Part shown: positions 18,545-55,775 of the stretch, in pieces
Position numbering within the stretch: the stretch's first letter is position 1
How the letters are laid out: each line of letters starts with the position of its first letter
Assembly (NCBI RefSeq): GCF_010747475.1
Contig: NZ_VSLZ01000001.1
Location: 434,001-498,000 of the forward strand
From: Halorussus sp. MSC15.2
GTDB taxonomy: Archaea > Halobacteriota > Halobacteria > Halobacteriales > Haladaptataceae
DNA: 64,000 bases
Direction of reading: 5' to 3'
The notes under the pieces: model-generated
Told to the model about the DNA's origin: nothing
Seen by the model: the letters and a program-made list of their open reading frames with translations, nothing else
Databases searched by the model: none
Made by a program: the position numbers and the translations under genes

Positions 18545-19038
18545 CAGTTATCGCTTGCGAGATTCGTGACGGTTCCTTTCACGGTGACATGGCCGAAGTC
18601 CAGCGTGAGTTGGCGACCGACTTCGAGCGGCTTATCTTGGAACGTGATGTCCTCGTCCGTCGTCGTAGTGTTGAGCGAAACGCGGAGCGTGACGGTTTGT
18701 TTGCGCGGATGTTGGCGTTCGTGGAGTGTCCCGTTCTGGTCCCTGACGATGACCTCGGTCGGTCGCACGGATTTGTTCTCGACGGCGGTGATGCTGTCCG
18801 TGCCGATTCGACCTTCCGTGATGGCGTCGGCGACGTAGGGCTGGACGCCGGTTATTTCGAAGGTGGCTACGGTGGTCGTGTTGTCTGTCAACGCCTGTGT
18901 CGCGTTGGCGGGTTGGTTGTCGCCTCCGAGTACGAGCGCGGTGCCAGCACCGGCGACTGCGAGGACGAGCAGGACAACGAGTGCGTCGATGATATTGATG
19001 GTGCCGAGGAGACGGCCCTTGTCGTCGATGAGCTTCAT
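18544..19038 (-). CDS. DUF4330-like membrane-anchored protein
   Basis: A 164-residue protein from the ATG at 19038. The opening MKLIDDKGRLLGTINIIDAL followed by one hydrophobic helix (VVLLVLAVAGAGTALVLGG, about 21-40) is characteristic of DUF4330. The rest is a beta-rich, Thr-rich domain likely on the outside of the cell. The family is of unknown function and is often seen near polysaccharide genes, which fits the neighbouring sugar locus, although that link is from memory. A longer start at 19113 would add residues without family likeness. Confidence 0.8.
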   Translation of the reverse strand: MKLIDDKGRLLGTINIIDALVVLLVLAVAGAGTALVLGGDNQPANATQALTDNTTTVATFEITGVQPYVADAITEGRIGTDSITAVENKSVRPTEVIVRDQNGTLHERQHPRKQTVTLRVSLNTTTTDEDITFQDKPLEVGRQLTLDFGHVTVKGTVTNLASDN

Positions 19039-19506
19039 AGGTGGAGACTCCGTTTTCGTGTTTGAATCCGTGGTCCGCCACGCCGCTAAACTGTTGTGTT
19101 TTGGCTTGTGCAAAAGTCACGGTCTAGACTCGACGTTACCCTTCGTCTATTCCCTACGGCTTGATTCAGATGAACGTTTTTTTCGTAGCTCCGCTGGAAC
19201 AACAGCGCATCCGTAAATTTACCACCACATATCTTACAGTTCCCTCTATTTCGACATACGTATTTTACGATGGACAGGTATTTTTAACAACCTTGTTGTT
19301 CGTTCACCTACTAAGTGTGGTTTACTGGGAGTGGCAAAAGTTGTCTTCATGAATGTGCATAGTAGTGTCTAAAGGACGTCCACTGCTAATTTTGACAGCA
19401 CGTATTTATAAGATATGAGTAGGGTACTTCGGATGAGGGTGTCCGTGAGTTAATCGCTTTTTGATCTACGTGCTCGAGTGCGATTACGTCAATTTTGAGA
19501 AATTTG
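19039..19506. other. AT-rich boundary spacer of the sugar locus
   Basis: About 470 bp without a convincing gene. Base composition changes here, from G+C-rich on the left to A+T-rich from about 19,150 rightward. Visible are runs of T (near 19,178), a CGTATTTATAAG element at 19,401-19,412 that could be a TATA box on either strand, and a short open frame at 19161-19352 lacking any family likeness. No tRNA, integrase or flanking direct repeat was found by eye. It may be the left junction of an imported segment and may hold remnant sequence. Confidence 0.55.
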
Positions 19507-21012
19507 TCATCCGCCGGAGTTGGTTAGCGTTATCCCGAGTTTGTCCTCCATTTCGTTAACGAAAACAAGCTCTTCTGTTCCTAATGCGAATGTCCATACA
19601 ACAAAGAGGTGCACAAGTAGGAAAAGGATGATAGCAGAGGCCATTTGGAGTATACCAGCGAATATACTGGATAAAGCAAAGTTCATTGCAAAAAAGCTCG
19701 GAATGCTTATGAATGCTACCCATCCGAGTTGTTTTGATAAAGGCTGAATGTTGACAAAATGGTACAACTCGACCAGTCCGATAATGTTTAGTAGTATGTA
19801 CGAAAACGCTGTCGCCAAAGCGGCACCAGAGATGCCTAACCGTGGAATAAAAGCTATATTAAGCCCAAAGTTCACGACTGCAATAGCGATAGTGTTATAC
19901 ATGACCACTTTTGTTCGGCCAATCGAAGTTAGGCAATTCATGGTTGGCCCAGCAATAACGGAACCAAAGAAACCTATAGCAAGAATCGTAAGCGCTATCG
20001 CCCCTCTTACATACTCATCTCCGAATGTAAGCTGAATTATTAACCGTGGGAATGAAGTCATCATGAGGAATATTGGAAGACTCAAAATGAACAGCCATTT
20101 CACGGTCATTTTATATATTTGACTCATCTCGTTTAACTCTCCGTTTGCGTGGTGTTTTGAAAGTAGTGGCATGGCAAGGAAGATAAATGCACCTAAGACC
20201 GTAGTCAGTAAATTTGCCAATGGATAGATGACGTGATAAATACCGACAGTTCCAGTTGAACTAAAGTAAGCTAGTAGATATGTGTCAATGTCCGATAGTA
20301 CAAGCGACATAAGGCCCGTAATAGCAAGCGGTGCAGAAAATTCTAATAGCTCACGGTGCTGTGTCGGCTGGGTGAATAATCCTTGCATCGGCGCATACTT
20401 CCAGAGGTACCACAGACTGACAATACCACAGACGATGAAAGGAATAGTATATGCCAGTATCCCTCCGAAGGTTCCTAGTCCTAATGAGATGGCGAAGGCG
20501 ATAAGTAATAAGCGAACTCCCGGCCGTACAACATGTCTGATAACGACTTTTGGAGTGGTTAATTCAAGCCCACGCATTGTACCAATCACATAACGCGTGA
20601 GTACTGCAAACGGCCCAATAATGGCGAATGCCTGAACTATTTTCGTTAATGACGGATCCTGGAATACATAGCGACTAAGAAACGGTGCTGCGATAAAGGC
20701 CAATATTGATAGAATAATTGAGAGAAATATCGTTAATTGGAGGCCTGAGTCAACCAAATCTTGACGTTCTTCTAATGTCTCTAACCGTGGGAGGATTTGA
20801 GCAACTCCTGTATTCATACCCAGAAGCGCAATTATCTGTATTGTGAGTACAATGGTAAGTCCGATTGAGACTGCCCCGAAATCAACCCGACCGAGATATC
20901 TTGAGATAAGCGCTTTTCCAACGAACGAAATAGCGTGGTCGAGATATGTTGCGAAGATTAGCAGTATTCCACTCTTAAAAAGAGAGTTTAGAGATTCGGA
21001 AATGTTTGTCAT
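19507..21012 (-). CDS. Wzx-type polysaccharide/oligosaccharide flippase
   Basis: A 501-residue integral membrane protein with about 14 predicted helices, the layout of MATE-like lipid-linked sugar flippases (Wzx, or AglR in Haloferax). The N-terminal FVGKALISRYLGRVDFGAVS and the central GPTMNCLTSIGRTKVVMYN, GLNIAFIPRLGISGAALATA are family-type segments. It would move polyprenyl-linked glycans to the outer face. It is followed upstream, in the same direction, by a sulfatase-fold gene, a glycosyltransferase and a Wzy-like polymerase. The codons are A+T-rich, unlike the flanking genome, which suggests horizontal transfer. Confidence 0.92.
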   Translation of the reverse strand: MTNISESLNSLFKSGILLIFATYLDHAISFVGKALISRYLGRVDFGAVSIGLTIVLTIQIIALLGMNTGVAQILPRLETLEERQDLVDSGLQLTIFLSIILSILAFIAAPFLSRYVFQDPSLTKIVQAFAIIGPFAVLTRYVIGTMRGLELTTPKVVIRHVVRPGVRLLLIAFAISLGLGTFGGILAYTIPFIVCGIVSLWYLWKYAPMQGLFTQPTQHRELLEFSAPLAITGLMSLVLSDIDTYLLAYFSSTGTVGIYHVIYPLANLLTTVLGAFIFLAMPLLSKHHANGELNEMSQIYKMTVKWLFILSLPIFLMMTSFPRLIIQLTFGDEYVRGAIALTILAIGFFGSVIAGPTMNCLTSIGRTKVVMYNTIAIAVVNFGLNIAFIPRLGISGAALATAFSYILLNIIGLVELYHFVNIQPLSKQLGWVAFISIPSFFAMNFALSSIFAGILQMASAIILFLLVHLFVVWTFALGTEELVFVNEMEDKLGITLTNSGG

Positions 21013-21014
21013 TG

Positions 21015-22334
21015 TTAGGCGTAACCCATGTCCCGCAACTGTTGCAATGTTCCTTCGCTTATTTCCACATCGGCACTGCCAGTTTCTTTGGTATCAAGGT
21101 CTTCGACAATTTTATCAAGCGACTTTTTTAGATTTTCGGACTTGCCATTTTCTACAACCCATTTTTCATTAGTCTGGTAGCCATAGTTGCTTGGCGGATG
21201 TATAATTCCTCGAAGTTGAGTATCGTATGGCTCCGGATTAAATCCGTCACTGATTAGTTTCGCTTTTCGACGCTCTCGAAGCCCGTGTCCTTCAATCAGT
21301 CTCGGAACCGGTTCTTTATCTTTCAATAGGTGACGGCCCCGCGAATGTTGATTATCCACGTCAGCTATATCCAAGATTGTTTTATGTACATCTAGCAAAC
21401 TGGTGATATCGTCCCGCTTCTTGTCCTTACTTGATCCATCATAGACAACTAATGGCACCTTAATGAGCTCGGGGTATAACCCATAGTCATGACCCCAATA
21501 CCCATGTTCTCCAAGCAGTTCGCCGTGATCAGCAATTGTAATTACATAATCCATATCGTCTGCTAACTTTTCAAAAATATCCTTATATTTTTGCGAAAGA
21601 TATTCCGCAGCGTCATCGTATGCCGTCTTTACCGATGCATCAGGTGGTGATTCTTTATTCTCAAGGCCTAATTCAGAGGGGGGAGAGTAGTCTAGATGTG
21701 TTTGCGCTTCTTTTGGGATTTCATCATATGGTGTGTGAGCTTCCATTAAATTGATGAAAACGAATTCGGAGGAGCTGAAGTTCTGATTCGCTAACCATGT
21801 ACGGGCATTACTTACACCGCTATCCTTTGGCGACCATAGTCCACGATTCTGAAGAGACATTTGTAACCCATATTTTACCGACAAAAGTGTTTTACAATCG
21901 TTCTTAAAACACCCAGTAAGAGCCCGAATATACCGTTTGGGGCCGGTCCCTTCGTTCATTTTGAAGAACTCTGCCCAATCGAATACCTCATCTTGAAGAG
22001 CCTGAACGCGATAGTTCCCGCTAAAAATATCAAAACCACGGTCAAAATTGAACGCGGGCGAAATATTTGGATTCGCAGAGTAAGCTCGTGTCGAATAACC
22101 GTTTTTTGTGAGGATTTCTGGTAGGGTTGCTTGTTCTACGTTGAGCTTCTGGTTTTTGGCGTGTACCCCATGTTCTGAGGGATACTTTCCGGTAAAGAGT
22201 GATGCATGGGCGGGTGCCGTCCAGTGCGATGTTGTCCAGGCGTTCTCGAATCGGATTCCAGGAAGCCATTGGAAGTGTTTATCGAAAAAATCCTTCCTGA
22301 GAGTATCAAGAACCACTAAAGCGATTCGAACCAT
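21015..22334 (-). CDS. Sulfatase-fold (alkaline phosphatase superfamily) enzyme, T-X-P-A-H type
   Basis: A 439-residue soluble protein with no signal peptide. Metal ligands are apparent in VVLDTLRKD (D10) and ADHGELLGEHG (about 269-279). The nucleophile region reads WTAPAHASLFTG: Thr39 stands where sulfatases have the Cys that becomes formylglycine, and His replaces the Arg of C-X-P-X-R. It therefore probably uses Thr as nucleophile, as phospho-transfer members of the superfamily do, and need not be a sulfatase. It ends with the tail LQQLRDMGYA shared with the second copy at 26588-28054. It lies 2 bp from the flippase gene. Confidence 0.9.
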   Translation of the reverse strand: MVRIALVVLDTLRKDFFDKHFQWLPGIRFENAWTTSHWTAPAHASLFTGKYPSEHGVHAKNQKLNVEQATLPEILTKNGYSTRAYSANPNISPAFNFDRGFDIFSGNYRVQALQDEVFDWAEFFKMNEGTGPKRYIRALTGCFKNDCKTLLSVKYGLQMSLQNRGLWSPKDSGVSNARTWLANQNFSSSEFVFINLMEAHTPYDEIPKEAQTHLDYSPPSELGLENKESPPDASVKTAYDDAAEYLSQKYKDIFEKLADDMDYVITIADHGELLGEHGYWGHDYGLYPELIKVPLVVYDGSSKDKKRDDITSLLDVHKTILDIADVDNQHSRGRHLLKDKEPVPRLIEGHGLRERRKAKLISDGFNPEPYDTQLRGIIHPPSNYGYQTNEKWVVENGKSENLKKSLDKIVEDLDTKETGSADVEISEGTLQQLRDMGYA

Positions 22335-22433
22335 TGTCCTTGACTCGAAGCTAACCTCAAATTAACGTTGCGCTTGACCACTCATCTTCCACCGAGTCAC
22401 CTCTATAACCAATAAAATAGAATGAAATATGTA

Positions 22434-23261
22434 TTAGTAATCTTCTCTGAACCGAGAGAACACTTTTCGCACTTGCTTCTTTATTGCCGGAGGGAGAAGT
22501 ATATAAAAGAGACGTAGCAACGGAAATACATAATAACGAGTTGGTAGAGAGAAGGACCGTACAGCTTTAATATTAAACCAAATGAGTGTGAGGTTCCTTC
22601 TCCATAGGCCGTATTTAGAGTGCCATGTACTATCAGGACGGATTTTTCTTTCAACAAGAATCTCATTTATATTGGCGAACTTAGTGTGCTGGCCTACTCT
22701 TGTCCAAAGTTCCAAATCTTCAATATCATTAATAGTTCCGTCATACAATCCAGAAGTAATAAGTATTTCCCTCCGAGCCATTACGCCACTATGTATAAGT
22801 GGAATTCCCTTTGCCATCTCTTTTCGAATTTGGAGATCCTCAGTTGGATAGTATCGATCGTATTCCTCTTCACGAATCGTATCGATAGACTTGTTTCCGA
22901 CGCCAACTACCCCCACATCAGGATTTTTATTTAGGAAGTCCACTTGTTTCTCAATCCTATCCTCCATAGAAAAGTCATCAGAGTCAACTCGAGCAATGTA
23001 TTTTCCTTTTGCTCTGTCGATAGCGAAGTTGAGAGAACTAGAAAACCCCAGTCCTTGCTTAATAAACAAATCTATTCTTTCATCACTATACTCATTTATT
23101 TTGCCAATTGTTCCATCTGATGAACCCCCGTCAATAATCAAAACTTCGAAATCTTCGAAAGTTTGCGCAAGCAATGAATCAATTGCTTCCTCTATGAACT
23201 CTTCCTCATTTAAAGTCGGTAGGATAATGCTTACTTCAGGGGATGGCATCAAGGTGCACAT
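22434..23261 (-). CDS. Family 2 glycosyltransferase
   Basis: A 275-residue GT-A enzyme. The N-terminus VSIILPTLNEEEFIEEAIDS, then IDGGSSDGTIGKI, and the metal-binding DSDD in IARVDSDDFSMEDRIEKQ are the GT2 hallmarks; a C-terminal hydrophobic stretch (YYVFPLLRLFYILLP) suggests membrane attachment. It transfers a sugar from a nucleotide donor to the growing chain; sugar and linkage are unknown. Starts at 23261 or 23249 (MPSPEV) differ by four residues. It is part of the A+T-rich minus-strand run with wzy and wzx. Confidence 0.92.
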   Translation of the reverse strand: MCTLMPSPEVSIILPTLNEEEFIEEAIDSLLAQTFEDFEVLIIDGGSSDGTIGKINEYSDERIDLFIKQGLGFSSSLNFAIDRAKGKYIARVDSDDFSMEDRIEKQVDFLNKNPDVGVVGVGNKSIDTIREEEYDRYYPTEDLQIRKEMAKGIPLIHSGVMARREILITSGLYDGTINDIEDLELWTRVGQHTKFANINEILVERKIRPDSTWHSKYGLWRRNLTLIWFNIKAVRSFSLPTRYYVFPLLRLFYILLPPAIKKQVRKVFSRFREDY

Positions 23262-23282
23262 CTCTTTTACGCCGTTAATTAT

Positions 23283-24542
23283 CTATCGATTTGAGGTCTC
23301 TAACGTCTTTGTAAAATCCTTAGCGTCGCCCCTTTTACCAGAATTTGATACTCCAAGTGCAAGACCTATTAGAAACCAAAACTGCCTTGATTTATAAATA
23401 TCTAAAAACACGCCCCAAAATAATAAGGATGAGAGCGAAATAAATACAAAAGACGAGATGACGTTTCGCCGACAGATAATGTCTCTACCAAGCCTTGTTA
23501 ACGGAATGAAAATTATTGCTATAGACGAAGCGAGACCTACAACCCCAAATTGAGAAAGTATTCCCACATAGATATTATGTGATGAGCGAGCGGATACCTC
23601 GAACGGAAGTCCGAAGAAATAATTGTTAGGACCAAGTCCAAGAAACGGATAATTCTCCCAACTCACTATTGCTCCTTTCCAAAGGGTAATTCTGTTACGT
23701 ATCCCCGCAACTACTGATCCTGAACGTAGGAAACGCATATTAAACAAATACAAAAATCGGTCAAAAAACACTAGAACTGACGATAGAATGATAATTATTA
23801 GGGTGGAAAAATGAGAAATTTTAATTGAAAAATCCGTTAATGAGTAAATGCATGACATAATGAAAAGTGCTGTGGTCAAGATTAGGATTCCTAATCCTGT
23901 CCGCGACCCTGTGGCCACAATCCCTATTCCAATAAATGACGGAAGAAGCCCTGAGAGGATAACTAGGGGTGTCGATTTACCATTAGAATATAAATCATAT
24001 ACTATGTGGAAAGATAATACATAACCAATAGTTAGAACGCTACCATATTGATTAGGGTCGTAATAAAATGGTTTTGCACGTGCTTGATTGACTCCGGAGA
24101 GCATACTCTTTACCCAACCAGGCTGATATCCCACTAGAAAAAGCACGGAGACAGTAATTGCAATCGCACAACTAACTACCGTGGATATAACAAAAACATT
24201 CCTTACTTGTTTGAATGATATCTCTTTACGATATATATAATTAAAGGTGAGTAGGGACGTGAGAAATCCAGTAATATACCTAAGCACGTCTAAAAACCCT
24301 TGACCAGATAGACTTACTGGTGACCTAGCTAATGAAGTTAACACAACTACTAAGAAAAATGAAAATGAAAGACTGAATTTTGGTTCAATTATGATTGAGC
24401 TTCTATAGACAAGTATATATGAGAAAACCGCTAGTCCAAGAACGATATCTGCGTATTTCACCGAACCAATTTCCGGTCCACGAAAGAGAAATAATGAAAT
24501 AGAAGCTAAATACAAAAATTTCGGAATAATGGTTTGCTTCAT
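23283..24542 (-). CDS. Wzy-like O-antigen ligase/polymerase
   Basis: A 419-residue membrane protein with about 10-12 helices and a large outer loop before the last helices, the pattern of the O-antigen ligase/Wzy_C superfamily. The loop contains SARSSHNIYVGILSQFGVVG, with the conserved His of the family. It should polymerise or transfer lipid-linked glycan repeat units outside the cell. It heads the minus-strand group and faces the FkbM-type gene divergently across about 100 bp. Sequence drift in this family is large, so ligase and polymerase cannot be told apart. Confidence 0.88.
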   Translation of the reverse strand: MKQTIIPKFLYLASISLFLFRGPEIGSVKYADIVLGLAVFSYILVYRSSIIIEPKFSLSFSFFLVVVLTSLARSPVSLSGQGFLDVLRYITGFLTSLLTFNYIYRKEISFKQVRNVFVISTVVSCAIAITVSVLFLVGYQPGWVKSMLSGVNQARAKPFYYDPNQYGSVLTIGYVLSFHIVYDLYSNGKSTPLVILSGLLPSFIGIGIVATGSRTGLGILILTTALFIMSCIYSLTDFSIKISHFSTLIIIILSSVLVFFDRFLYLFNMRFLRSGSVVAGIRNRITLWKGAIVSWENYPFLGLGPNNYFFGLPFEVSARSSHNIYVGILSQFGVVGLASSIAIIFIPLTRLGRDIICRRNVISSFVFISLSSLLFWGVFLDIYKSRQFWFLIGLALGVSNSGKRGDAKDFTKTLETSNR

Positions 24543-24645
24543 ACCTCTTCGTTTTGTTCTCTACAGGTAAAGATGACGGACTTCCTCAGCAAGGGGCCAC
24601 TCTGTATCGAAAAGCTTGAGTATTCACCAAGTTTGGTTGTGCCAT

Positions 24646-25422
24646 ATGTCGGACCTACTTAAACGAGCTCATAAAGTGTACCACCGAGATGGCCTTGGGA
24701 TACTTTTAGGAAAGTCATTACGGTACACATATAATAGAACGCTTCGTCGATTCCTTCCCAAAACCCAAGAAACCGCCACTTTCAATGGCGTGCATGTTTC
24801 CCAAAGACGTTGGTTAGATAGCATTGTTCCTTGGTGGACTCCACCTGGACAAGATATGCCCCTCTATGAAACGGAACTCATTCGGGGTGCTCGTAGTCAG
24901 ATTGAAACCGGTGACAAAATAACCATTATTGGCGGTGGGTGGGGTGTTTCCACCGTGGTAGCGGCACAAGAGGCAGGTGAAGAAGGGAAAGTTGTAACAT
25001 ACGAGGGTGCAACTAAACAGGTGAAACGAACTCAGCAAACCCTCCTTCTTAATGACACTCTAGCAGAGGTTTCCATCATCCACGCTGTTGTCGGTAAGAC
25101 GAAAAACCTACGAGGGGATGCAGGCCGTCCAGAGCAGATTAATCCGGATCAATTGTCTCCTTGTGATGGGCTCATAATGGACTGTGAAGGAGCGGAAATG
25201 GATATTTTGACCGATCTACGCATTAGACCACGCTTTATTGTCGTCGAGACTCACGGTTTGTATGATGCTCCGACTGAAAAAGTGAAAGAGAAATTGGTGG
25301 AAATGGAGTATGAAATAGCAGCATCAGGTGTAGCTGAGGAGTGGAAAAAGGAGGATTGTTATGAAAACGATGTCTATGTCCTTACAGCTGTCAAGGAAGA
25401 GACCTCGGAAAACAAATCATGA
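24646..25422 (+). CDS. FkbM-type SAM-dependent methyltransferase
   Basis: 258 residues from the ATG at 24646. A TTG-start reading from 24616 has less support. The SAM-binding region is DKITIIGGGWGVSTVVAAQEA with VVTYEGA following; further on GLIMDCEGAEMDIL and RFIVVETHGLYD match the FkbM pattern. FkbM-like enzymes O-methylate sugars and polyketides, so methylation of a glycan residue is likely here. The stop overlaps the next gene start (ATGA), implying coupled translation with the glycosyltransferase. Confidence 0.88.
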   Translation: MSDLLKRAHKVYHRDGLGILLGKSLRYTYNRTLRRFLPKTQETATFNGVHVSQRRWLDSIVPWWTPPGQDMPLYETELIRGARSQIETGDKITIIGGGWGVSTVVAAQEAGEEGKVVTYEGATKQVKRTQQTLLLNDTLAEVSIIHAVVGKTKNLRGDAGRPEQINPDQLSPCDGLIMDCEGAEMDILTDLRIRPRFIVVETHGLYDAPTEKVKEKLVEMEYEIAASGVAEEWKKEDCYENDVYVLTAVKEETSENKS

Positions 25423-26582
25423 ACGATAGGATAACACGAGATGAAATGCAGAAAGTTGCAATTGTCCATCCTGATTTAATGCAAAAAGGGGGAGCGGAGT
25501 CAGTCGCTATGCATATTTTAGAGGCATTACAGGATAACTATGAAGTTTATTTAATTACTTACACTAATCCCGACATTAGCGAATTAAATAGTTTCTTCGA
25601 CACTACAGTCAAAGACGTTGAGATAGAACGGATTGATGGTCCTTCTCAATGGTTCAACAAGGTTGTCCAAGAACGGGTCGTTATGCTTAAAAATGTAATC
25701 CTCTGCCGTCACGCTAATGCTCAATCTTCGAACTACGACCTTCTTATCAGCACTAAGAATGAACTGGGTTTGAATCCTCCTTCAATAGAGTACATTCATT
25801 CGCCCACCTTTGATACCAGTCAACTTCCTTCTTCACAGCAGAATAAACCTGGGACTGCAAGACAAATTTATAAGGAATTATGTATGAGGTTGAGTAACAT
25901 CAATCAAAGCGTGTTAGATACGACACAGCTTTTATCGAACTCCGAATGGACAGCGAACGTCTTTGAAAGAACGTATGGGCGACGACCCACTCCAGTTTAC
26001 CCGCCAATCAATACTAGTATATTTGAAAGCCCTCCTTGGGAGAATCGCGAAAACGGGTTTGTAGTTGTTGGCCGTATTCACCCAAGCAAGAATTTACTGA
26101 AGCTTATCAATATTGTCGAAAAAGTCCGGTCAAGAGGTCATGATGTACACGTCCATTTTGCTGGTCCTCCATCTAAGGGGCAGTACCACGAAGTGATTTC
26201 AAGGAAACATCAAGACCTACCCTTCGTCCACTTAGAGGGTGAACTGAGTAGACGAGAACTTATTTCGCTTATTTCTTCCCATAAGTATGCACTTCACGGG
26301 AAAGAGTTTGAACATTTTGGAATGTCTATTGCTGAGTACGTTGCTGCTGGATCCATTCCTTTTTTACCAAAAAGTGGCGGACAAGTAGAAATTGTTGACG
26401 GGAAATCGGAACTCTTGTACTCATCGTTAAGTGGAGCTGTAGAACAAATTGAGGCGGTAATTACTGATAAGGAGTTGCAGGAAGAAATCCGCGAAGATCT
26501 ACGCGGTGCTACAGAAAAGTTTAACAAAAAACGTTTTGAAGAGGAAATACTAGAAATAGTAACGGCTGTCTGCAAAGGGTAA
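25419..26582 (+). CDS. Family 4 glycosyltransferase (ALG11-like)
   Basis: A 387-residue GT-B enzyme. Domain 1 starts VAIVHPDLMQKGGAESVAMH; domain 2 has FVVVGRIHPSKNLLKLINI and the donor-binding EHFGMSIAEYVAAGSIPF. It probably adds a hexose or mannose to the lipid-linked chain. The ATG overlaps the methyltransferase stop by four bases, and the gene is convergent with the second sulfatase-fold gene across 5 bp. Its codons are A+T-rich like its neighbours. Confidence 0.93.
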   Translation: MNDRITRDEMQKVAIVHPDLMQKGGAESVAMHILEALQDNYEVYLITYTNPDISELNSFFDTTVKDVEIERIDGPSQWFNKVVQERVVMLKNVILCRHANAQSSNYDLLISTKNELGLNPPSIEYIHSPTFDTSQLPSSQQNKPGTARQIYKELCMRLSNINQSVLDTTQLLSNSEWTANVFERTYGRRPTPVYPPINTSIFESPPWENRENGFVVVGRIHPSKNLLKLINIVEKVRSRGHDVHVHFAGPPSKGQYHEVISRKHQDLPFVHLEGELSRRELISLISSHKYALHGKEFEHFGMSIAEYVAAGSIPFLPKSGGQVEIVDGKSELLYSSLSGAVEQIEAVITDKELQEEIREDLRGATEKFNKKRFEEEILEIVTAVCKG

Positions 26583-26587
26583 TTCTG

Positions 26588-28054
26588 TTACAAATACCCG
26601 AGATCTTGGAGGCGTGATTTAGTACTACCATCTAGTTTGTTATCTTCTCCACCACTGTCTATTTTGGATTTACTAATCCAAGGTTCGATTCCTTCTAAAA
26701 GGTCTTCTTTATCTTGAAGAGTCGTTTGTTTTTCATTGAAGCCATTAATCTTGTACGTGGTTCTACTTCCATCTGCCTTGTGTACTAGTTTCCTCTTTGG
26801 TGTCCTGATGGCCTGTCGAGGATGTTGGTAGTCCTGAAATTTCGTAGCATCATAATCGCCGTCAGTTCGTCTATCTACAGCTTTTTCAGGAGGATTTGTT
26901 CCTAAGAGTTCCGAAATAGCATACTTTCGCCCTTCTTCTGCGTACGGCGGGGGAAGGATAGCTCCGTTCGGGTTTGTGACCTCACTTTTATCCACTCCAG
27001 CCTCATGAAGGATCAGTGAAAATAGATCCGTGGTTTGAATCTGGGATTCCACTAACCTTTGATGGCCATCACCGGTTTTGACAGCGCACGGAACCCGAAC
27101 TAAGGTGTCGTGTAATGAATAGAAGTGGCTCATTAATCCGTGTTCGCCAATATTCTCACCATGATCTCCTAAAAATACCACAACAGAGTCTTCCCTCGCC
27201 CCTATTTCATCGAGAAATTCATAAATCTCTTCTAACTTTCTGTCAAGATACAGAAGCTCGGCTTTATATAACTGTTGTAGTAGACTTAAATCATCATCAT
27301 TGATTGGATTTTTCCCGAACATATGTTCCAATGGTTCTTGTGGGACAGAACGAGCCTTATTCAAATCACTATCGTTGAGGAATTTGAGGGCTGTCTCTTT
27401 TGGTGGATCGTATTCTAAATGAGGCTCTAAATAATTAGCAAAGAGAAAGAATGGATTTTCTCGGTCCCATTCATCGATTAACCATTTTTTAACTATTTTA
27501 TTTATCCTTGTTGCACCGTGGTCATGGCGATTATGAAGAAACTTTCCATAAAAACCGTTAATAGTATTCACAACTGGATTTCCAGATAGTATATCCTTGG
27601 TAATATGCTTAAGAGTTTCAACTGATGATTTGTCCTTCGATAAGCGACTAGTCTCAATAAGGTCCTTTTCAGTTTGAATTAACTGCCAAATTTTGTAGAA
27701 GTCGTCGAAACCCCTAGCCAGGCCGAAAAGGTCGCTCACCCATGAATTATTCGTGACTCCAACAGTCTGGTACCCCTCCGAATGAAGAAGACCTGCTAAA
27801 GTATCAATCGACGGCGAAAGGCTATCTTCCCAACTGTTAACACCGTGATTACTGGGGAACAACCCGGTAAAAAGAGAAGCGTGTGCAGGTAGTGTCCACG
27901 GGGCTGTAGAAATACATTGTTCGTACATAACGTTTTCTTCAGCAAAGGAGTCGAAAAACGGGGTTGTTTTCGGTGAAAACTCAGAGTAAGCAGAAACACT
28001 TGAAGCACGAACGGTATCAAGAACAAACAAAATGATATTAGGCTGCTCTCTCAT
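26588..28054 (-). CDS. Second sulfatase-fold enzyme, T-X-P-A-H type
   Basis: 488 residues from the ATG at 28054 (MREQPNIILFVLDTVRAS); an in-frame start at 28081 adds nine. Metal-binding D13 in FVLDTVRAS and FLGDHGENIGEHGLMSH near the middle are the alkaline-phosphatase-fold ligands. The nucleophile segment PWTLPAHASLFTG has Thr54 and His in place of the Cys and Arg of sulfatases. The chain ends KSRLQDLGYL, like the copy at 21015. The insert around residues 145-260 is longer than in that copy. The substrate may be a phospho- or sulfo-group on the glycan; this is inferred. Confidence 0.9.
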   Translation of the reverse strand: MREQPNIILFVLDTVRASSVSAYSEFSPKTTPFFDSFAEENVMYEQCISTAPWTLPAHASLFTGLFPSNHGVNSWEDSLSPSIDTLAGLLHSEGYQTVGVTNNSWVSDLFGLARGFDDFYKIWQLIQTEKDLIETSRLSKDKSSVETLKHITKDILSGNPVVNTINGFYGKFLHNRHDHGATRINKIVKKWLIDEWDRENPFFLFANYLEPHLEYDPPKETALKFLNDSDLNKARSVPQEPLEHMFGKNPINDDDLSLLQQLYKAELLYLDRKLEEIYEFLDEIGAREDSVVVFLGDHGENIGEHGLMSHFYSLHDTLVRVPCAVKTGDGHQRLVESQIQTTDLFSLILHEAGVDKSEVTNPNGAILPPPYAEEGRKYAISELLGTNPPEKAVDRRTDGDYDATKFQDYQHPRQAIRTPKRKLVHKADGSRTTYKINGFNEKQTTLQDKEDLLEGIEPWISKSKIDSGGEDNKLDGSTKSRLQDLGYL

Positions 28055-28242
28055 GGTTGCCAGTGGCAATGAGGCCTTCACTTAGATATAAATTTTGGAC
28101 TGGACCGAATCGTGAACGGACACACGAAGCAGGAACTGTGGTTAGCTACAACAGTTAGTAGGTCAAAGGTTGGCGATTAGTAGCACAGTAAGGGTAGTGT
28201 CAACAAGTGGTGGGGAGTACAAGTGATGGCTACGAAGATAGA

Positions 28243-28260
28243 CAATAAATAGATTTATTG
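28243..28260. repeat. 18-bp perfect palindrome in a divergent spacer
   Basis: CAATAAATAGATTTATTG has 8-bp arms around AG. It lies in the 315-bp spacer between the second sulfatase-fold gene (minus) and a glycosyltransferase (plus), about 110 bp before the latter. It could be an operator or overlapping promoter elements for both directions. No second copy was noticed. Confidence 0.45.
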
Positions 28261-28369
28261 GGGTTCATCTCTCTGGAGAAAGCCCCAGAATCCCAAGGCT
28301 TAGCTTCTGTGAAGAGCAGGCTTCGAAACAAAAGGTTAATATTGAGTCCAACCATCGGACAGGATAAAA

Positions 28370-29275
28370 ATGGAGGTATCCGTAATCATTCCTACTTATG
28401 GTAGAACGTCGGAATTGCGTGAAGCGATAGAAAGCGTTCGAAAGCAGTCTACGCAACCTGCAGAGCTTATCATCATAGATGAGGATCTAAACAGTAGCGT
28501 TGGGGATTTTATCTCTAATATTAGCTTTTCGTCCGGGACAAACATTAAGTACTTTAATGGTCAATACGGTGGATTAACTGCATCGAAAAACGTAGCTGCT
28601 GAGAAATCAACTGGTGATATAGTGCTGTTTATCGACGATGATGCCGAACTTCATTCGGATGCGATTAAAAACCTTATTATTGTCTATGAAAGAATTAATC
28701 CAGACGGTGTTTGGCTTGTAACCGATGAGCAGCCCACCATTGCACAACGGCTTTATACCCAGCTTTTCCATTTTGGCCCATTTAATTATGGGCTAAGAGA
28801 AAGGGAGCTTAATAAGGAAGAGACAGGAGTTTTTACGGAAACGGATGCTATGGGGGGTTGCGGAATGAGTGTTCGAAGCTACGTCCTTGATGAATTCAAA
28901 TTCGATGAATCGGACCCGGTGACGTTCCTGCCAGAAGATATTGACTTTTCATATAGGATGAAAGAGAATCACAAAATTGGTGCGACCGCGATTGCCCGGA
29001 AGGACCATAAACGGGTAAAGCGGAATAATCTTTCTAAACAAGAGTTGGAGAGGGGTTTTTATCGAAAGCCGTATTCATATAATTATCTCTACACACAAAC
29101 ACTCAACCGTAATCCTAAATTCCTACCTCATTACTTAATAGTGAATATTGGAATACTAATCAGCGCCATCTATGTAGGGTGGCAAAACCGGACCATAGCA
29201 CCTATACTTGGTTTTCTCAAGGGAGTCTGTTCGATTATATTTGGAAATAGCGTGGAAGAAGAGTACTTACAATAG
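28370..29275 (+). CDS. Family 2 glycosyltransferase with C-terminal membrane segment
   Basis: A 301-residue GT-A protein: EVSVIIPTYGRTSELREAIE, IIIDEDLNSSVGDF and the DXD-type FIDDDAELH, then GGCGMSVRSYVLDEF and FLPEDIDFSYRMKENH, the acceptor-side ED motif. Near the C-terminus YLIVNIGILISAIYVGW is a membrane helix. It probably extends the lipid-linked glycan. The TAG stop is followed without a gap by the ATG of the asparagine-synthase-like gene, so they are co-translated. It is the last clearly A+T-rich gene of the locus. Confidence 0.92.
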   Translation: MEVSVIIPTYGRTSELREAIESVRKQSTQPAELIIIDEDLNSSVGDFISNISFSSGTNIKYFNGQYGGLTASKNVAAEKSTGDIVLFIDDDAELHSDAIKNLIIVYERINPDGVWLVTDEQPTIAQRLYTQLFHFGPFNYGLRERELNKEETGVFTETDAMGGCGMSVRSYVLDEFKFDESDPVTFLPEDIDFSYRMKENHKIGATAIARKDHKRVKRNNLSKQELERGFYRKPYSYNYLYTQTLNRNPKFLPHYLIVNIGILISAIYVGWQNRTIAPILGFLKGVCSIIFGNSVEEEYLQ

Positions 29276-31165
29276 ATGTGTGGGATTGCAGGGGTTCTTG
29301 ATTCAAAATCACATCCTAGACAAACCGACTTGGCCCGAATGAACGAAAGTATGGAGCACCGTGGCCCAGATGACTCCGGCATTTACTGCGACGGGCCTAT
29401 TGGACTTACCCACAGACGGCTAAGCATCATCGACCTTTCGAGCGGTCACCAGCCGATTTTTAACGAGGACGAGTCAGTAGCAGTAGTGTTCAACGGTGAA
29501 ATATACAACTATACGTCACTACGCAGCTCTCTATCAAGTGTCGGTCACACGTTTTCGACTGACACGGACACCGAGGTCCTCGTTCATCTTTACGAGGAAC
29601 ACGGGCCATCGTTCGTCGAGAGGTTGGAGGGGATGTTCGCCTTCGCTATATGGGACAGCGAGAAGGAGAGACTGGTGCTCGCACGCGACCGAATGGGAAT
29701 AAAGCCACTTTTGCTCGCCTCAGATGATGATGCGGTCGCGTTCGCGTCCGAACTCCCCGCTCTACTCAAAGCCGAGGTAAACCACGGCGGACTTGACCGA
29801 ACGGCCATCGCTCAGTACTTCGCGTTCGGGTTCATCCCCTCCCAACGGACTGCGTTTAAGAACATCACGAAACTTCGACCGGGGGAACTCGCCATCGTCT
29901 CCGAAGACGGAGTCCAGCGAGAATCGTTCTACTCACCATCGATTACCCCTCGCGAACCGGGTCTCGACACCGCGGCCACCGAACTCCGGGAGCGAGTTGA
30001 GCGGTCGGTTGAGAGACGACTGCAGAGCGACGTCCCACTTGGGGCCTTCTTGAGCGGCGGTATCGATTCGAGTATCGTCGTCGGGACAATGGCACAGATA
30101 TCCGATGAACCGGTAAAGACGTTCACGGTCGGGTTCGATGAAGAACTGTTTGACGAGTCGTGGGCCGCGCGCGAAGTTGCTTCCTTCCACAACACCAATC
30201 ACCACGAATTTACAGTTTCGCCGGACGATGTGCGCGAGTTGATTCCAAAAGTGGTTGGACGTCTCGGCGAACCGTTTGCCGACCAGTCGCTGCTGCCCAC
30301 GTTCGTGGTTGCCCAGAAAACTCGGCAGAACGTAAAGGTCGCTCTCTCAGGTGACGGTGCCGATGAATTGTTCGCCGGATACGGGAAGTACCGCGGAGAG
30401 TATTATTCCCAGTACTATCGGACAATTCCGCGTTCGCTACGCCGACGACTTATTCAACCAGCGGTCGAATCACTTCCGGCCTCGCGGACGAACACGGTGG
30501 GTGAGTTCTCGCGTAAGGCGCAAAAGTTCCTTCGCGGCGGTCAGTCCGATACCGCAGCGCGCCATTTTGAATGGCTTCGCATACACGATAATTCTGCAGA
30601 TCGTCTGTTCGACGATATTTCGCCGTCGGACGTGGGACGAAACGCGATTTCGGCCCAACACGCAGAACTGGAATCCTGGCTTCCTCCAAGTCGTCGCGAT
30701 GCGTTGAGTCGCATGCAAGCTGTCGATACTGGCTTCAGTCTCCCGAACCAAATGCTCCAAAAAGTTGATACGGCGAGCATGTTCAATTCATTAGAAGTCC
30801 GAGTCCCGTTCCTCGATACCGCAGTGGTGGAGTACGCGATGTCGTTACCGACGTCGTACAAAATTACACCGCGAACTCAAAAGCGGGTGTTGATTCGAGC
30901 GTTCGAGGACCGACTGCCACGGTCGATTCTCAAACGTGACAAACAGGGGTTCGACATGCCAATCGGCGAGTGGTTCAAAGACGAACTCGCTACCGAGTTC
31001 TGCGAAACCCTCCGTTCGACTGATACCGAACTTCTCGATACCGACGAAGTTCGTTCGGTGTACACCGAACACTGCACCGGCAACCGCGAACACGGGAAGT
31101 TCCTCTGGAGCGTGTACGTTTTCTTGAAGTGGCTCAAACGGATGCGGACAGATGGTGTCCTCTAA
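29276..31165 (+). CDS. asnB: Asparagine synthase-like glutamine amidotransferase
   Basis: A 629-residue two-domain enzyme. The N-terminal Cys of MCGIAGVLDS is the Ntn glutaminase nucleophile, with MEHRGPDDSG and FNGEIYNYTSL completing the glutaminase. The PP-loop ATP site LSGGIDSSIV lies near residue 260. In sugar loci such paralogues amidate hexuronic acids rather than aspartate, and UDP-hexuronate genes lie nearby, so glycan amidation is a fair inference. The first about 100 bases are A+T-rich, the rest G+C-richer. The end overlaps the next, opposite gene by 4 bp. Confidence 0.93.
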   Translation: MCGIAGVLDSKSHPRQTDLARMNESMEHRGPDDSGIYCDGPIGLTHRRLSIIDLSSGHQPIFNEDESVAVVFNGEIYNYTSLRSSLSSVGHTFSTDTDTEVLVHLYEEHGPSFVERLEGMFAFAIWDSEKERLVLARDRMGIKPLLLASDDDAVAFASELPALLKAEVNHGGLDRTAIAQYFAFGFIPSQRTAFKNITKLRPGELAIVSEDGVQRESFYSPSITPREPGLDTAATELRERVERSVERRLQSDVPLGAFLSGGIDSSIVVGTMAQISDEPVKTFTVGFDEELFDESWAAREVASFHNTNHHEFTVSPDDVRELIPKVVGRLGEPFADQSLLPTFVVAQKTRQNVKVALSGDGADELFAGYGKYRGEYYSQYYRTIPRSLRRRLIQPAVESLPASRTNTVGEFSRKAQKFLRGGQSDTAARHFEWLRIHDNSADRLFDDISPSDVGRNAISAQHAELESWLPPSRRDALSRMQAVDTGFSLPNQMLQKVDTASMFNSLEVRVPFLDTAVVEYAMSLPTSYKITPRTQKRVLIRAFEDRLPRSILKRDKQGFDMPIGEWFKDELATEFCETLRSTDTELLDTDEVRSVYTEHCTGNREHGKFLWSVYVFLKWLKRMRTDGVL

Positions 31166-32274
31166 AGCCGTTGCTTGATTTCACGCGTCGTCTCCGCGAC
31201 TGTATCTTCCCACCGAAACCGTTTAGCAACTACATGCCGCCCTTGTCGGCCGTACTCCTCCTGTTTCGTTCTATCGCTCACCAAACTCCGCAACTCACGT
31301 CCGAACCCCAAAACGTCTCCCACCGGAACGGTCGCACCGGCTCTTTTGACGACTGGCGCAACCTGTTCCAGGTCGCTGGCAACAACTGGCGTTCCGGACG
31401 CGAACGCCTCCAGAACCGTTCGAGGCAGTCCCTCTGCGCGACTCGGTAGTACCAGTACGTCCGTAGATCGATACACGTTCGGCATCTCGTCGTAGGATAC
31501 GTGGCCGAGAAAGGTGATGGACTCGTCTAGTCGTCGTTCGTCCACCTGTTGTTCCAGTTTCGATCGAAGCGGACCGTCGCCACAGAGATACAACTCCGCA
31601 TTGGGGTACTCCTCGTGGACATTTTTGAACGCCTCGATGGCGTCTCCGGGTCGTTTTCCCTCTACCAACCGACCGACGAACAACACGACCGGACCGTCGG
31701 CATCTATCAACTCGCTTTCCGGCCCGTCCGGCGTAAATCTAGACTGATCAATACCGTTGGATACGACTTCGATGTCGGTCTGTACCCCGAAGTCGCGTAC
31801 GCGCTCCTTGTCCTCGTCGGTATAGCAGAATACAACATCTGCGCTGTCAAAGGTCCACTTCCCGACCGTTTTCAGGTAGGCATCAAAAATCCACTCCGGT
31901 GCGGTCTGCGAGTAGAGTCCGTGATTTGTGATTGCTAGCGGTGTGTCACCTAGCCGCCGTTTCAGTGCGGCAAGGTTCGTCGAGAAGTAGAGGTGGGAGT
32001 GGGCGTGAACCACATCGTAGTTGTCAGCGCTTGCGAGAAACTTTGCCACGCCAGCAGCGATTTCGTTACCTAGCACGTTGATGGTCGGAGACCGACGAAC
32101 GACGGTGTATCCGTCACGAGTATCTCGCCTGGGCTTTGAGTTGTCGTCCGTGACTGTCAAGACGGTCACGTCGTGACCCATTGCTGCCTGATCTCGGCTC
32201 ATCGCGTGGACGTGGTACGTACCACCGCCGGGAACCTCCGGATAAACATTCTGTGCAACGCGGAGGATGTTCAT
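31162..32274 (-). CDS. Family 4 glycosyltransferase
   Basis: A 370-residue GT-B enzyme. Domain 1: MNILRVAQNVYPEVPGGG, the acceptor-binding loop. Domain 2: VVLFVGRLVEGKRPGDAI and LPSRAEGLPRTVLEAFASG with the E-X7-E donor motif, then TPVVASDLEQVAP. It adds one sugar to the lipid-linked chain; specificity is unknown. It is transcribed with the sugar transferase, epimerase and nucleotidyltransferase upstream on the same strand, with host-like base composition. Confidence 0.94.
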   Translation of the reverse strand: MNILRVAQNVYPEVPGGGTYHVHAMSRDQAAMGHDVTVLTVTDDNSKPRRDTRDGYTVVRRSPTINVLGNEIAAGVAKFLASADNYDVVHAHSHLYFSTNLAALKRRLGDTPLAITNHGLYSQTAPEWIFDAYLKTVGKWTFDSADVVFCYTDEDKERVRDFGVQTDIEVVSNGIDQSRFTPDGPESELIDADGPVVLFVGRLVEGKRPGDAIEAFKNVHEEYPNAELYLCGDGPLRSKLEQQVDERRLDESITFLGHVSYDEMPNVYRSTDVLVLPSRAEGLPRTVLEAFASGTPVVASDLEQVAPVVKRAGATVPVGDVLGFGRELRSLVSDRTKQEEYGRQGRHVVAKRFRWEDTVAETTREIKQRL

Positions 32275-32313: not shown

Positions 32314-33744
32314 TTACTTGACGAATGATTTCAAATCCACGAAGACTGCCCACACTTGCCTTACAACAATCTTCACGTCGAACCAAAACGACTGTTTCCG
32401 GACGTACTGGATGTCGTAGTGCAGTTTCTCCTCCGGTTGCTTGCCCGTCGCATCGTTTATTTGTGCCAGTCCGGTCAGCCCTGGCTTGATGAACCACCGC
32501 TTGCGCCACTCAACGACACCGGTTCGGATGTCGGCCTCCAACTCTGGACGTTCCGGTCGCGGACCCACGACGCTCATATCGCCCACCAGAATTGACCACA
32601 ACTGTGGGACCTCATCTAAGTGTGTCTGTCGGAGGATTCGCCCGACCCGCGTCACTCGTGGGTCGACCTCTCCGGCGTCCTCGTCGCTTATCGTCGCTCC
32701 AGTCGCAGCCTCGGCGTCGGTTACCATGCTTCGGAACTTGTACACCTCAAAGGTTTCACCGAACTCTGCGGTCCGTTCCTGACTGTAGAACACCGGACCC
32801 GGACTGTCTAATTTGATAGCGACCGCGATAACTCCGATGAAGGGTGCGAACGCGAGTAGGCCGATGGCCGCAAACACCACATCGAATACTCGCTTGAACA
32901 CGTAGTCCTGCCAGTCCCACGGTTCTAGGTCAATATCGATTACGTCGTCGTGCCCAGTGGTCGGCGTGGTGGTTAACACGTCATCTGCATGGTCACGGTG
33001 GACCTTCGCATCCACACCATGTTCGTAGCACGTATCGAGCGCCCCGAAGAACTCCGCGCGGTCGGGGTAAGCGAACGCCAATACTGCGGTATCGACGTCG
33101 TACTCGACCAGTACCTCGCCGAGTTGCGAGAGACCGCCAAGGCATTCGAGGTTGTCTGTCATCACGTCACCGCTCCCGTCGGCGATAGCAGGCGTCGTAA
33201 CTTGGCGGTCATCTTCGGAGTAGTACGGACTTGGCGGCGAGACGTAGCCCACTAGCGGGACGCTAGTAGCGTCAAGTACGTCGCGAATCTCTTCGGGGTC
33301 ATCACCGACGATGACCGCATTCACCTTCCGACTGGGCCGGTAGCCGATAGCGACAAACCACGCAGGAAAGACTACTAGCAATCCGACCACCGTTAGCATG
33401 AGCGTCGAACGCGGAAGTGGATAGCTGTAGTCGAAATAGCCGACAGTTGCCATCGCAAATCCGGCAACGACCACTCGCTTTTGAGTGAACAGAATTGTAT
33501 CTAAAATCCGTCGCGGTCGGGGCTTGAACAGAGGAATTAGACTCATGGTGACAATAAGAGTGGTCGTAACTGTGGCTATGAGTAAATCGTTCCCAGATAA
33601 CACGTCGGCAGGGAGTCGCCGGAACACCGGTATAACGGTTGTTAGCCACTGGACAGCCGGGTGGTTTGCGAAGATTACCACCCCGGCCGTTCCCAAAAGT
33701 GTACCGACGACACTCACGACTCGATACCGATAACCGGAGACCAT
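32314..33744 (-). CDS. Polyprenyl-phosphate sugar-1-phosphate transferase (initiating enzyme)
   Basis: 476 residues from the ATG at 33744 (a GTG at 33759 would add five). Four or five N-terminal membrane helices lead to a nucleotide-binding-like middle region; the C-terminal 200 residues are the catalytic domain: KRVFDVVFAAIGLLAFAP, then KLDSPGPVFYSQERTAEFGE, VYKFRSMVTDAE, LRQTHLDEVPQLWSIL and VGPRPERPE. It starts glycan assembly by moving a sugar phosphate from a nucleotide sugar to the polyprenyl carrier. The layout is that of WbaP/EPS-type transferases. Confidence 0.94.
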   Translation of the reverse strand: MVSGYRYRVVSVVGTLLGTAGVVIFANHPAVQWLTTVIPVFRRLPADVLSGNDLLIATVTTTLIVTMSLIPLFKPRPRRILDTILFTQKRVVVAGFAMATVGYFDYSYPLPRSTLMLTVVGLLVVFPAWFVAIGYRPSRKVNAVIVGDDPEEIRDVLDATSVPLVGYVSPPSPYYSEDDRQVTTPAIADGSGDVMTDNLECLGGLSQLGEVLVEYDVDTAVLAFAYPDRAEFFGALDTCYEHGVDAKVHRDHADDVLTTTPTTGHDDVIDIDLEPWDWQDYVFKRVFDVVFAAIGLLAFAPFIGVIAVAIKLDSPGPVFYSQERTAEFGETFEVYKFRSMVTDAEAATGATISDEDAGEVDPRVTRVGRILRQTHLDEVPQLWSILVGDMSVVGPRPERPELEADIRTGVVEWRKRWFIKPGLTGLAQINDATGKQPEEKLHYDIQYVRKQSFWFDVKIVVRQVWAVFVDLKSFVK

Positions 33745-33812
33745 CACGCTATGCAGCACAGTCAGTCAGCTTAAAAGCTATGGAGTGCTACTTAGGTGTG
33801 AAATTTGACTGT

Positions 33813-34799
33813 TCATGAGTTCCGGATTAGTGGCTCGTACCAATCCCGGTTGTCACAATACCACTCAGTGAACTGCTCGACGCCTTCACGGATAGTCGTC
33901 CTTGGCTCGTAGCCGAGTAACTTCCTCGCTTTTGAAATATCCGCGTGAGTGTGTTTAGCGTCGGCTGCGTTACGCTCACCGTATTCAAGTTCGAGATCGG
34001 GAGCAAGTTGATCGCGGATTTCCTTGGCCAGCGTTCGGATTTCGATATTGTCGGTACTCCCGACGTTCAAGATTTCGCCATCCGCACTGTCGTTGTCGAG
34101 CAGGGTCTTGTTCGCCTGGACGACGTCATATATATAGGTAAAATCACGAGTCTGGGTCCCGTCGCCGTATATGACCGGTGGTTCGTCATTTAGACATCGA
34201 GAAACGAAATTGCTGATGGCCATATTCGGTCGCATTCGCGGGCCATAAACGGTGAAATACCGGAGCGTGACGGTTGGGAGATTGTACACCTCATTATAAA
34301 TCCGCGCGTACTGCTCTTGCGCAACCTTCGAAGCACCGTACGGACTTACCGGCGTTGTGGGATGGTCTTCGTCGTAGGGGAGATACTCTGGCTTACCGTA
34401 CACGGATGATGAACTCGCCACGACCACACGCTTAGTATCGGAGTTACGGGCTGCCTCTAGCATGTTGAGGGTACCCGAGACGTTGACATCGTTGACTTTC
34501 TGTGGCTCTTCGACACTCGCACGGACGCCCGCCTGTGCAGCTTGATGGAAGATTACGTCTGCATCGCCGACGTACTCGTTAACGATGTCCTCATCGCGGA
34601 TATCGCCCTGAGTCAGTTCATAGCTTCCGTCACTCTCGGCAGCTGTATCTCGACCGACCTTGACGTTGTGTTCTTTGATGCCCCGGTCGTAGAACGGTTC
34701 GAAGTTGTCGAGCGCTACTACGTCGTGGCCGTCTCGGACGAATTCCTCGGCGAGATGGCTCCCGATGAACCCTGCGGCACCGGTAACGAGTATTCGCAT
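33813..34799 (-). CDS. NAD-dependent sugar-nucleotide epimerase/dehydratase
   Basis: 328 residues from the ATG at 34799, an extended short-chain dehydrogenase. The NAD site is MRILVTGAAGFIGSHLAEEF, the catalytic pair is the Y and K of SPYGASKVAQEQYAR, with VVASSSSVYGKPEY before it. Members of this group interconvert UDP-glucose/galactose or UDP-GlcA/GalA. With the UDP-sugar dehydrogenase next door, a UDP-glucuronate 4-epimerase is a reasonable guess, not proven. It lies in the same minus-strand unit as the nucleotidyltransferase. Confidence 0.92.
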   Translation of the reverse strand: MRILVTGAAGFIGSHLAEEFVRDGHDVVALDNFEPFYDRGIKEHNVKVGRDTAAESDGSYELTQGDIRDEDIVNEYVGDADVIFHQAAQAGVRASVEEPQKVNDVNVSGTLNMLEAARNSDTKRVVVASSSSVYGKPEYLPYDEDHPTTPVSPYGASKVAQEQYARIYNEVYNLPTVTLRYFTVYGPRMRPNMAISNFVSRCLNDEPPVIYGDGTQTRDFTYIYDVVQANKTLLDNDSADGEILNVGSTDNIEIRTLAKEIRDQLAPDLELEYGERNAADAKHTHADISKARKLLGYEPRTTIREGVEQFTEWYCDNRDWYEPLIRNS

Positions 34800-34852
34800 T
34801 ACTACTGGCCGGACACGCAATTAGCAAAAAGGCATCGGGACCGTACTGAACC

Positions 34853-35602
34853 TTAGTTGGCGGACGCTTCGGAAATTTTGGGTTCAGATTCGTCGTCTTG
34901 AAGGAGTCGTTCAGCTTTATCCCGATCCTCAGGATATCCCACGTCCACACGCCATCCATCCATCCGAATTGCGTCAATGGTACGACCGCTCTGGATGAGG
35001 AGGTCGATAGCCTCACTAATCTCGTACTCACCACGTTTTGACGGTTGGACCAGATGACAAGCGTGAAAGATAGCGGGGCTAAAGGTGTAGAACCCGGTCA
35101 TTACGAGGTTCGATGGAGGATTCTCGGGTTTCTCGACCACGTCGGTGATTTCGCCGTAGTCATTGGTATCACAAACACCGTAGCGGTCTGCCTCCTCGAG
35201 GGGCACCTCCTCGGTCAGGAAGGCCGCATCTGCACGGTCCTCCTGCTGACGGTTGATTACGTCACCGAGGTTTGCGTCGAAGATATTATCACCTAGAATC
35301 AACATAAAGTCATCGTCTATGTACTCCTCCACCGTGAGGAGGGCGTGTGCGAGGCCCTTCTGCTCCCGCTGGTGAGCGTATGTGAGAGGAATACCGTCAA
35401 ACTCATCACCGTAGTAACTGATTATGTCCTGCTTGCGGTAGCCGACCACGACAACGAACTCGTCGGCCCCTAAATCTACCAATTGATTGAAACAGTGTGT
35501 CAAAATCGGCTTTCCGTCAACTTCGACCATTCCCTTGGGCTTGTCCTCGGTCAAGGGGCGCAACCGAGTTCCTTCCCCCGCGGCTAGCACGACGGCTTTC
35601 AT
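34853..35602 (-). CDS. aglF: Sugar-1-phosphate nucleotidyltransferase (AglF-like)
   Basis: A 249-residue single-domain enzyme. It starts MKAVVLAAGEGTRLRPLTED with KPKGMVEVDGKPILTH, and has FMLILGDNIFDANL and ITDVVEKPENPPSNLV as nucleotide and sugar contacts. Haloferax AglF is a glucose-1-phosphate uridylyltransferase feeding N-glycosylation; this gene has that size and stands next to a UDP-glucose dehydrogenase, as aglF does near aglM. UTP versus dTTP preference is not certain. It lacks the beta-helix of the GlmU-like protein at 14980. Confidence 0.88.
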   Translation of the reverse strand: MKAVVLAAGEGTRLRPLTEDKPKGMVEVDGKPILTHCFNQLVDLGADEFVVVVGYRKQDIISYYGDEFDGIPLTYAHQREQKGLAHALLTVEEYIDDDFMLILGDNIFDANLGDVINRQQEDRADAAFLTEEVPLEEADRYGVCDTNDYGEITDVVEKPENPPSNLVMTGFYTFSPAIFHACHLVQPSKRGEYEISEAIDLLIQSGRTIDAIRMDGWRVDVGYPEDRDKAERLLQDDESEPKISEASAN

Positions 35603-55656: not shown

Positions 55657-55775
55657 TAGCGGCCGATGCCCGTCCAATTTTCCACACCTTCATAAGGGAT
55701 TGGCTTCGTGGATTACAGTAATTGAAATGACTCGGACTTGCCCGAAACCGCGTTCCGGGGCGGTCGGTGGTCGCC

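Follow-up and report, generated by a model that had tools for sequence, protein, structure and literature searches.

Two sulfatase-fold proteins in a haloarchaeal genome

The window analysed here is a stretch of 64,000 nucleotides of Halorussus sp. MSC15.2 (contig NZ_VSLZ01000001.1, positions 434,001 to 498,000), taken from a haloarchaeal genome of 4.4 Mb. Within a surface glycan cluster it carries genes for two sulfatase-fold proteins, designated P0001 and P0002, which are the subject of this report. Both open reading frames described in the original prediction, made from the sequence alone, were found in place:

21015-22334, minus strand: P0001, sulfatase-fold protein of 439 aa, predicted metal and catalytic set Asp10, Thr39, His43, His200, Asp269, His270 and His282
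26588-28054, minus strand: P0002, sulfatase-fold protein of 488 aa, predicted metal and catalytic set Asp13, Thr54, His58, His212, Asp297, His298 and His310

The P0002 reading frame opens with a GTG at 28081 (497 aa), and the alternative ATG at 28054, giving 488 aa, is the likelier start.

Both proteins matched the Sulfatase profile PF00884 far beyond chance (P0001: E 6e-26, 92 bits; P0002: E 2e-31, 110 bits; cut-off 25 bits). A secondary match to the NPP profile PF01663 exceeded the cut-off of 23 bits in P0002 (49.8 bits) and fell below it in P0001 (21.3 bits), and in both proteins the PF00884 score was well above that of PF01663. We did not adopt NPP as the main label, given the far higher PF00884 scores. 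The full-length profile matches and the closest solved structures were likewise sulfatases, while part of the C-terminal region of the pair matched phosphoethanolamine transferase models. The two proteins share 27% identity, and a tree of 37 relatives places them in separate, well supported clades; the pair therefore did not arise by recent duplication. Neither contains a transmembrane-like segment (no 19-residue stretch with mean hydropathy above 1.0), and both start directly at the catalytic domain. The shared C-terminal tail, which had been taken as a feature of the pair, is present (LRDMGYA and LQDLGYL) but is not special to it, since nearly all homologues end in L-x-x-L/M-G-Y.

AlphaFold models of the pair were of low confidence, with a mean predicted local distance difference test score (pLDDT) of 48; their four-row alignments drew on four distant relatives, the sole yield of viral contigs. 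The low-confidence P0002 model (pLDDT 48) superposed on sulfatases with VIA Z 17.7 (250 residues, 3.8 A) and on MCR-1 with VIA Z 15.7 (246 residues, 3.8 A). Modelling thus confirms the predicted sulfatase/alkaline-phosphatase fold and gives the fold only; structure prediction, proposed earlier as a check on the site, left the geometry of the site unreadable at this pLDDT.

Homologues of P0001 were found in 27 of the 28 genomes of the family, and the same count was obtained for P0002; as a lone query in the genome_contigs collection, P0002 retrieved no relatives. A further sulfatase-fold paralogue of the Thr type (G000:C9:10700-12157; L001, L109), with relatives L015-L035, is near-invariant within the family (L109 and L114 share 92.5% identity) and is a core haloarchaeal gene. 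It lies outside recognised glycan clusters among conserved neighbours, one of which encodes a multi-pass membrane protein.

Active site residues

In sulfatases, formylglycine is made from the Cys or Ser of the motif (C/S)-x-P-x-R. Using phmmer, Thr39-Ala-Pro-Ala-His43 of P0001 and Thr54-Leu-Pro-Ala-His58 of P0002 were aligned on this motif of formylglycine sulfatases (5g2v, 7oz8, 9koq). Both proteins therefore read T-x-P-A-H, with Thr at the formylglycine position, Pro kept at +2 and His in place of Arg at +4, just as first described. The same alignments revealed a third change, absent from the original prediction: the sulfatase Lys is replaced by His282 in P0001 and His310 in P0002, 13 residues past the metal Asp (269-282 and 297-310). 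The pair retains Asp10/13, His200/212 and the Asp-His-Gly-Glu motif of sulfatases. Both the Thr/Pro/His and the Asp/DHGE/His sets are conserved among the homologues. We aligned the fetched best matches to P0001 and P0002 together with the two proteins and their own loci (59 rows in all), a set uninformative on more distant sulfatases; the nucleophile column held Thr in 57 rows, Ser in two and Cys in none. PF00884 proteins of the same genome with a readable site also carry Thr at this place. Relatives on predicted viral contigs of IMG/VR (L116:6001-7221 and L117:5989-7224) have S-D-P-N-Y/H, with Ser in the nucleophile position, together with the DHGELLGE...H motif of the window proteins and the tail ALGYA.

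The formylglycine-generating enzyme (FGE, PF03781) was not found in the genome in a search that excluded the anaerobic radical S-adenosylmethionine type, and 26 of the 28 family genomes are without it, two having it. Given a genome without FGE and a site without Cys in the 59 rows, P0001 and P0002 are not formylglycine sulfatases, in agreement with the original prediction; although the PF00884 match would suit such enzymes, Thr at the site and His in place of both Arg and Lys leave this reading next to no probability. The motif itself is not new, as T-x-P-x-H is the nucleophile motif of NPP enzymes and PF00884 proteins with Thr were described in 2016, when the SulfAtlas authors reported this residue in 30 of the family's 59 Pfam seed proteins. 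They stated that, short of experiment, such proteins could not be regarded as functional sulfatases and that conversion of Thr to formylglycine was not known (PMC5066984).

Two other groups of the superfamily offer a parallel at the site. In MCR-1, the ligands of Zn1 are Glu246, Thr285, Asp465 and His466 and those of Zn2 are His395 and His478 (PMC5175174), and the Asp-His...His spacing of 13 in the window proteins equals that of Asp465-His466-His478. P0002 T-L-P-A-H-A-S-L-F-T-G was aligned with T-Y-P-N-H-Y-T-L-V-T-G of ENPP5. This likeness of nucleophile motif and metal residues to MCR-1 and NPP therefore points to a site with a hydroxyl nucleophile and two putative metals, like that of the transferases and phosphodiesterases of this superfamily. 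It also raises the reading that the pair are NPP-type phosphodiesterases or pyrophosphatases with nucleotide sugars or lipid-linked intermediates as substrates; the shared T-x-P-[NA]-H and the PF01663 score of P0002 speak for it. We regard this as unlikely: the whole-length matches and closest structures are those of sulfatases, the Asn at +3 of NPP is Ala here, P0001 stays under the NPP cut-off, and a single glycan cluster with two diverged copies suits modification better than turnover.

Gene cluster

The genes around P0001 and P0002 form a glycan cluster anchored by aglB, with aglF, aglM, a flippase, Wzy and four glycosyltransferases, which bears out the glycan cassette described earlier. 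The further features are as follows:

19507-21012, minus strand: Wzx-type flippase (PF01943), ending 2 bases from P0001
22434-23261, minus strand: GT2 glycosyltransferase
23283-24542, minus strand: Wzy_C / O-antigen ligase-type membrane protein
24616-25422, plus strand: FkbM-type methyltransferase (weak match)
25419-26582, plus strand: GT4 glycosyltransferase
28370-29275, plus strand: GT2 glycosyltransferase
29276-31165, plus strand: asparagine synthase-like amidotransferase, near the XrtA/PEP-CTERM amidotransferase model
31162-32274, minus strand: GT4 glycosyltransferase
32314-33759, minus strand: bacterial-type sugar-phosphate transferase (PF02397)
33813-34820, minus strand: NAD-dependent sugar epimerase/dehydratase
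34853-35602, minus strand: AglF, UTP-glucose-1-phosphate uridylyltransferase (436.7 bits, NCBI curated cut-off 400)
35691-36983, plus strand: AglM, UDP-glucose 6-dehydrogenase (779 bits, NCBI curated cut-off 670)
37046-39406, minus strand: AglB-type oligosaccharyltransferase (TIGR04154, E 3.6e-42, under the strict cut-off)

The amidotransferase may amidate uronic acids. From the flippase to the GT2 gene (19-29 kb of the window) the G+C content drops sharply to 38-44%, compared with 63-72% outside, which suggests that the part from 19000 to 29000 is an exchanged cassette. A congener (L113) carries a relative of P0002 (38% identity) in a similar aglB cluster, with AglB at 892 bits, AglF at 490 and the sugar transferase at 595, and a cluster on a Haladaptatus plasmid (L102) combines three sulfatase-fold proteins of this kind with aglM, aglF and glmS.

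Proposed function

The characterised haloarchaeal proteins to which the pair can be likened come from the aglB cluster of Halobacterium salinarum: Agl30 (VNG1056C, UniProt Q9HQQ3) and Agl31 (VNG1057C, UniProt Q9HQQ2), which carry annotations as alkaline-phosphatase-domain or sulfatase-like proteins. In 2025 genetic work showed both to be needed for sulfation of the third and fourth sugars of the N-linked tetrasaccharide, and each, when expressed in Haloferax volcanii, puts a group of the mass of sulfate on the glycan there; sulfation of the Hbt. salinarum glycans was also backed by nuclear magnetic resonance (NMR), and Agl31 is cytosolic (PMC11980604). The pair had been credited with an unfamiliar chemistry or a new archaeal decoration system, which the work on Agl30 and Agl31 overtakes. 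Their C-termini, HLEDLGYL and LEELGYT (deduced from the published cloning primers in the reading frame of the Strep tag), show the same tail as the window proteins, and because this tail is family-wide the agreement supports family rather than orthology. Quantitative polymerase chain reaction primers for Agl30, read as DFGHLDM and ITDRTV, hint at the same C-terminal region; being frame guesses, they were not used as evidence. Sequences of Agl30 and Agl31 were not found with the exact primer in 391 genomes of the class, in the genus tentatively identified as Halobacterium or with a wobble pattern in all genome_contigs.

Taken together, we favour, with modest confidence, the reading that P0001 and P0002 are cytosolic, metal-dependent glycan transferases with a Thr nucleophile, probably sulfotransferases of the Agl30/Agl31 kind. 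For the metals, covalent intermediate, transferred group, donor and acceptor we infer the following course. The cluster would make a lipid-linked surface glycan, and each protein would put a sulfuryl group on one of its sugars before the flippase turns the glycan outward. Asp10/13 and the Asp-His pair 269-270/297-298 would hold a metal to which Thr39/Thr54 is bound; this Thr would attack the donor to give a sulfo-threonine, a second metal or else the acceptor would be bound by His200/212 and His282/310, and a sugar hydroxyl would accept the group from the sulfo-threonine. A threonine ester suits transfer because, unlike the formylglycine ester, it does not break down by elimination.

Several observations weigh against the assignment as sulfotransferases. 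The usual donor of sulfotransferases is 3'-phosphoadenosine 5'-phosphosulfate (PAPS), and in this genome a Sat-type ATP sulfurylase was not detected, nor were CysD (27 bits, cut-off 397) and adenosine 5'-phosphosulfate (APS) kinase (apsK 26 bits, cut-off 139) detectable, so that PAPS may be lacking; a true apsK was present in four of the 28 family genomes. Relatives of P0001 also occur outside glycan clusters: those of L101 and L103 stand alone on plasmids, and on a plasmid of Haladaptatus halobius (L098:11950-14799) a P0002-like and a P0001-like gene are adjacent on the same strand, far from glycan genes. A third paralogue of Hbt. salinarum, VNG1063H, showed no role in glycan sulfation (PMC11980604). 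The shift in Hfx. volcanii was 39.98 at z=2, two decimals that cannot alone separate sulfate (79.957) from phosphate (79.966), and the presumed kinship with Agl30/Agl31 is drawn solely from family, gene setting and tail. True apsK was absent from all 13 genomes of the genus that is tentatively Halobacterium. At 55767-56306 the window gave an APS-kinase match of 26 bits, far below the apsK cut-off of 139, which we took for a generic small P-loop kinase and discarded. With Sat, CysD and apsK undetectable in this genome, either sulfate is activated by a different route in haloarchaea, or they draw on a different donor, or phosphate is what some of these enzymes transfer; a donor for haloarchaeal sulfation was not found in the literature searched.

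This last option is the main rival, namely transfer of a phospho-group to the glycan (phosphoglycerol- or phosphoethanolamine-like or another substituted phosphate) as done by EptA/MCR or LtaS, though here within the cytosol. The Thr nucleophile with the His ligand set of MCR-1, the partial match of the C-terminal region to phosphoethanolamine transferase models and the undetectable PAPS synthesis all agree with it. EptA/LtaS-type enzymes, however, possess membrane domains and work on the outer face with phospholipids as donors, whereas the window proteins are soluble. Moreover, the sole characterised haloarchaeal relatives sulfate glycans, with NMR support (PMC11980604). We give phospho-transfer roughly a one-in-five standing: glycan transfer is the best reading, and its phospho form, the first suggestion of the original prediction, is the less likely one. 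More improbable still is that the pair hydrolyse sulfate or phosphate esters with Thr used directly, in glycan editing or recycling. The fold and metal set permit hydrolysis and some relatives lie outside glycan clusters, but the predicted cytosolic location, the biosynthetic cluster and the transfer shown for the closest studied relatives argue against it.

Many such haloarchaeal proteins are annotated as sulfatases and hence read as glycan-degrading, while the window pair probably builds glycans. The kind of enzyme has been known since 2025; what is new is the proposed mechanism at the level of residues, together with the gap over the donor. The conserved Thr/His set offers a testable residue-level mechanism for the Agl30/Agl31 sulfotransferases, for which we found none in the literature searched, and the missing sulfate-activation genes pose the question of the haloarchaeal sulfuryl donor. 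A tentative generalisation, to which we give about a quarter of our belief, is that a widespread haloarchaeal class of sulfatase-fold proteins transfers sulfuryl groups through sulfo-threonine from a donor other than PAPS and builds sulfated surface glycans where the usual sulfate-activation genes are missing.

Comparison with known systems

Agl30 and Agl31 resemble the window pair in the sulfatase-like/alkaline-phosphatase core, the aglB-anchored cluster and the tail; they act on another glycan from another cluster, and the likeness is one of family, setting and tail only. With the formylglycine sulfatases (S1, PF00884) the pair has in common the fold, the Asp and Asp-His metal motif and the best full-length matches, but it has Thr for Cys/Ser, His for Arg at +4 and His for the Lys after DHG..GEH, in a genome without FGE. 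EptA/MCR-1 share, by sequence alignment and spacing only, the Thr nucleophile, the Asp-His...His spacing of 13 and the two-metal His set, whereas the pair is without the N-terminal membrane domain, has another nucleophile motif and gives a much weaker sequence match. The NPP enzymes (PF01663) share the nucleophile motif T-x-P-x-H with TG..(P/A)..HG after it; the window pair differs from them in having Ala where NPP has Asn (+3) and is overall nearer to the sulfatases.

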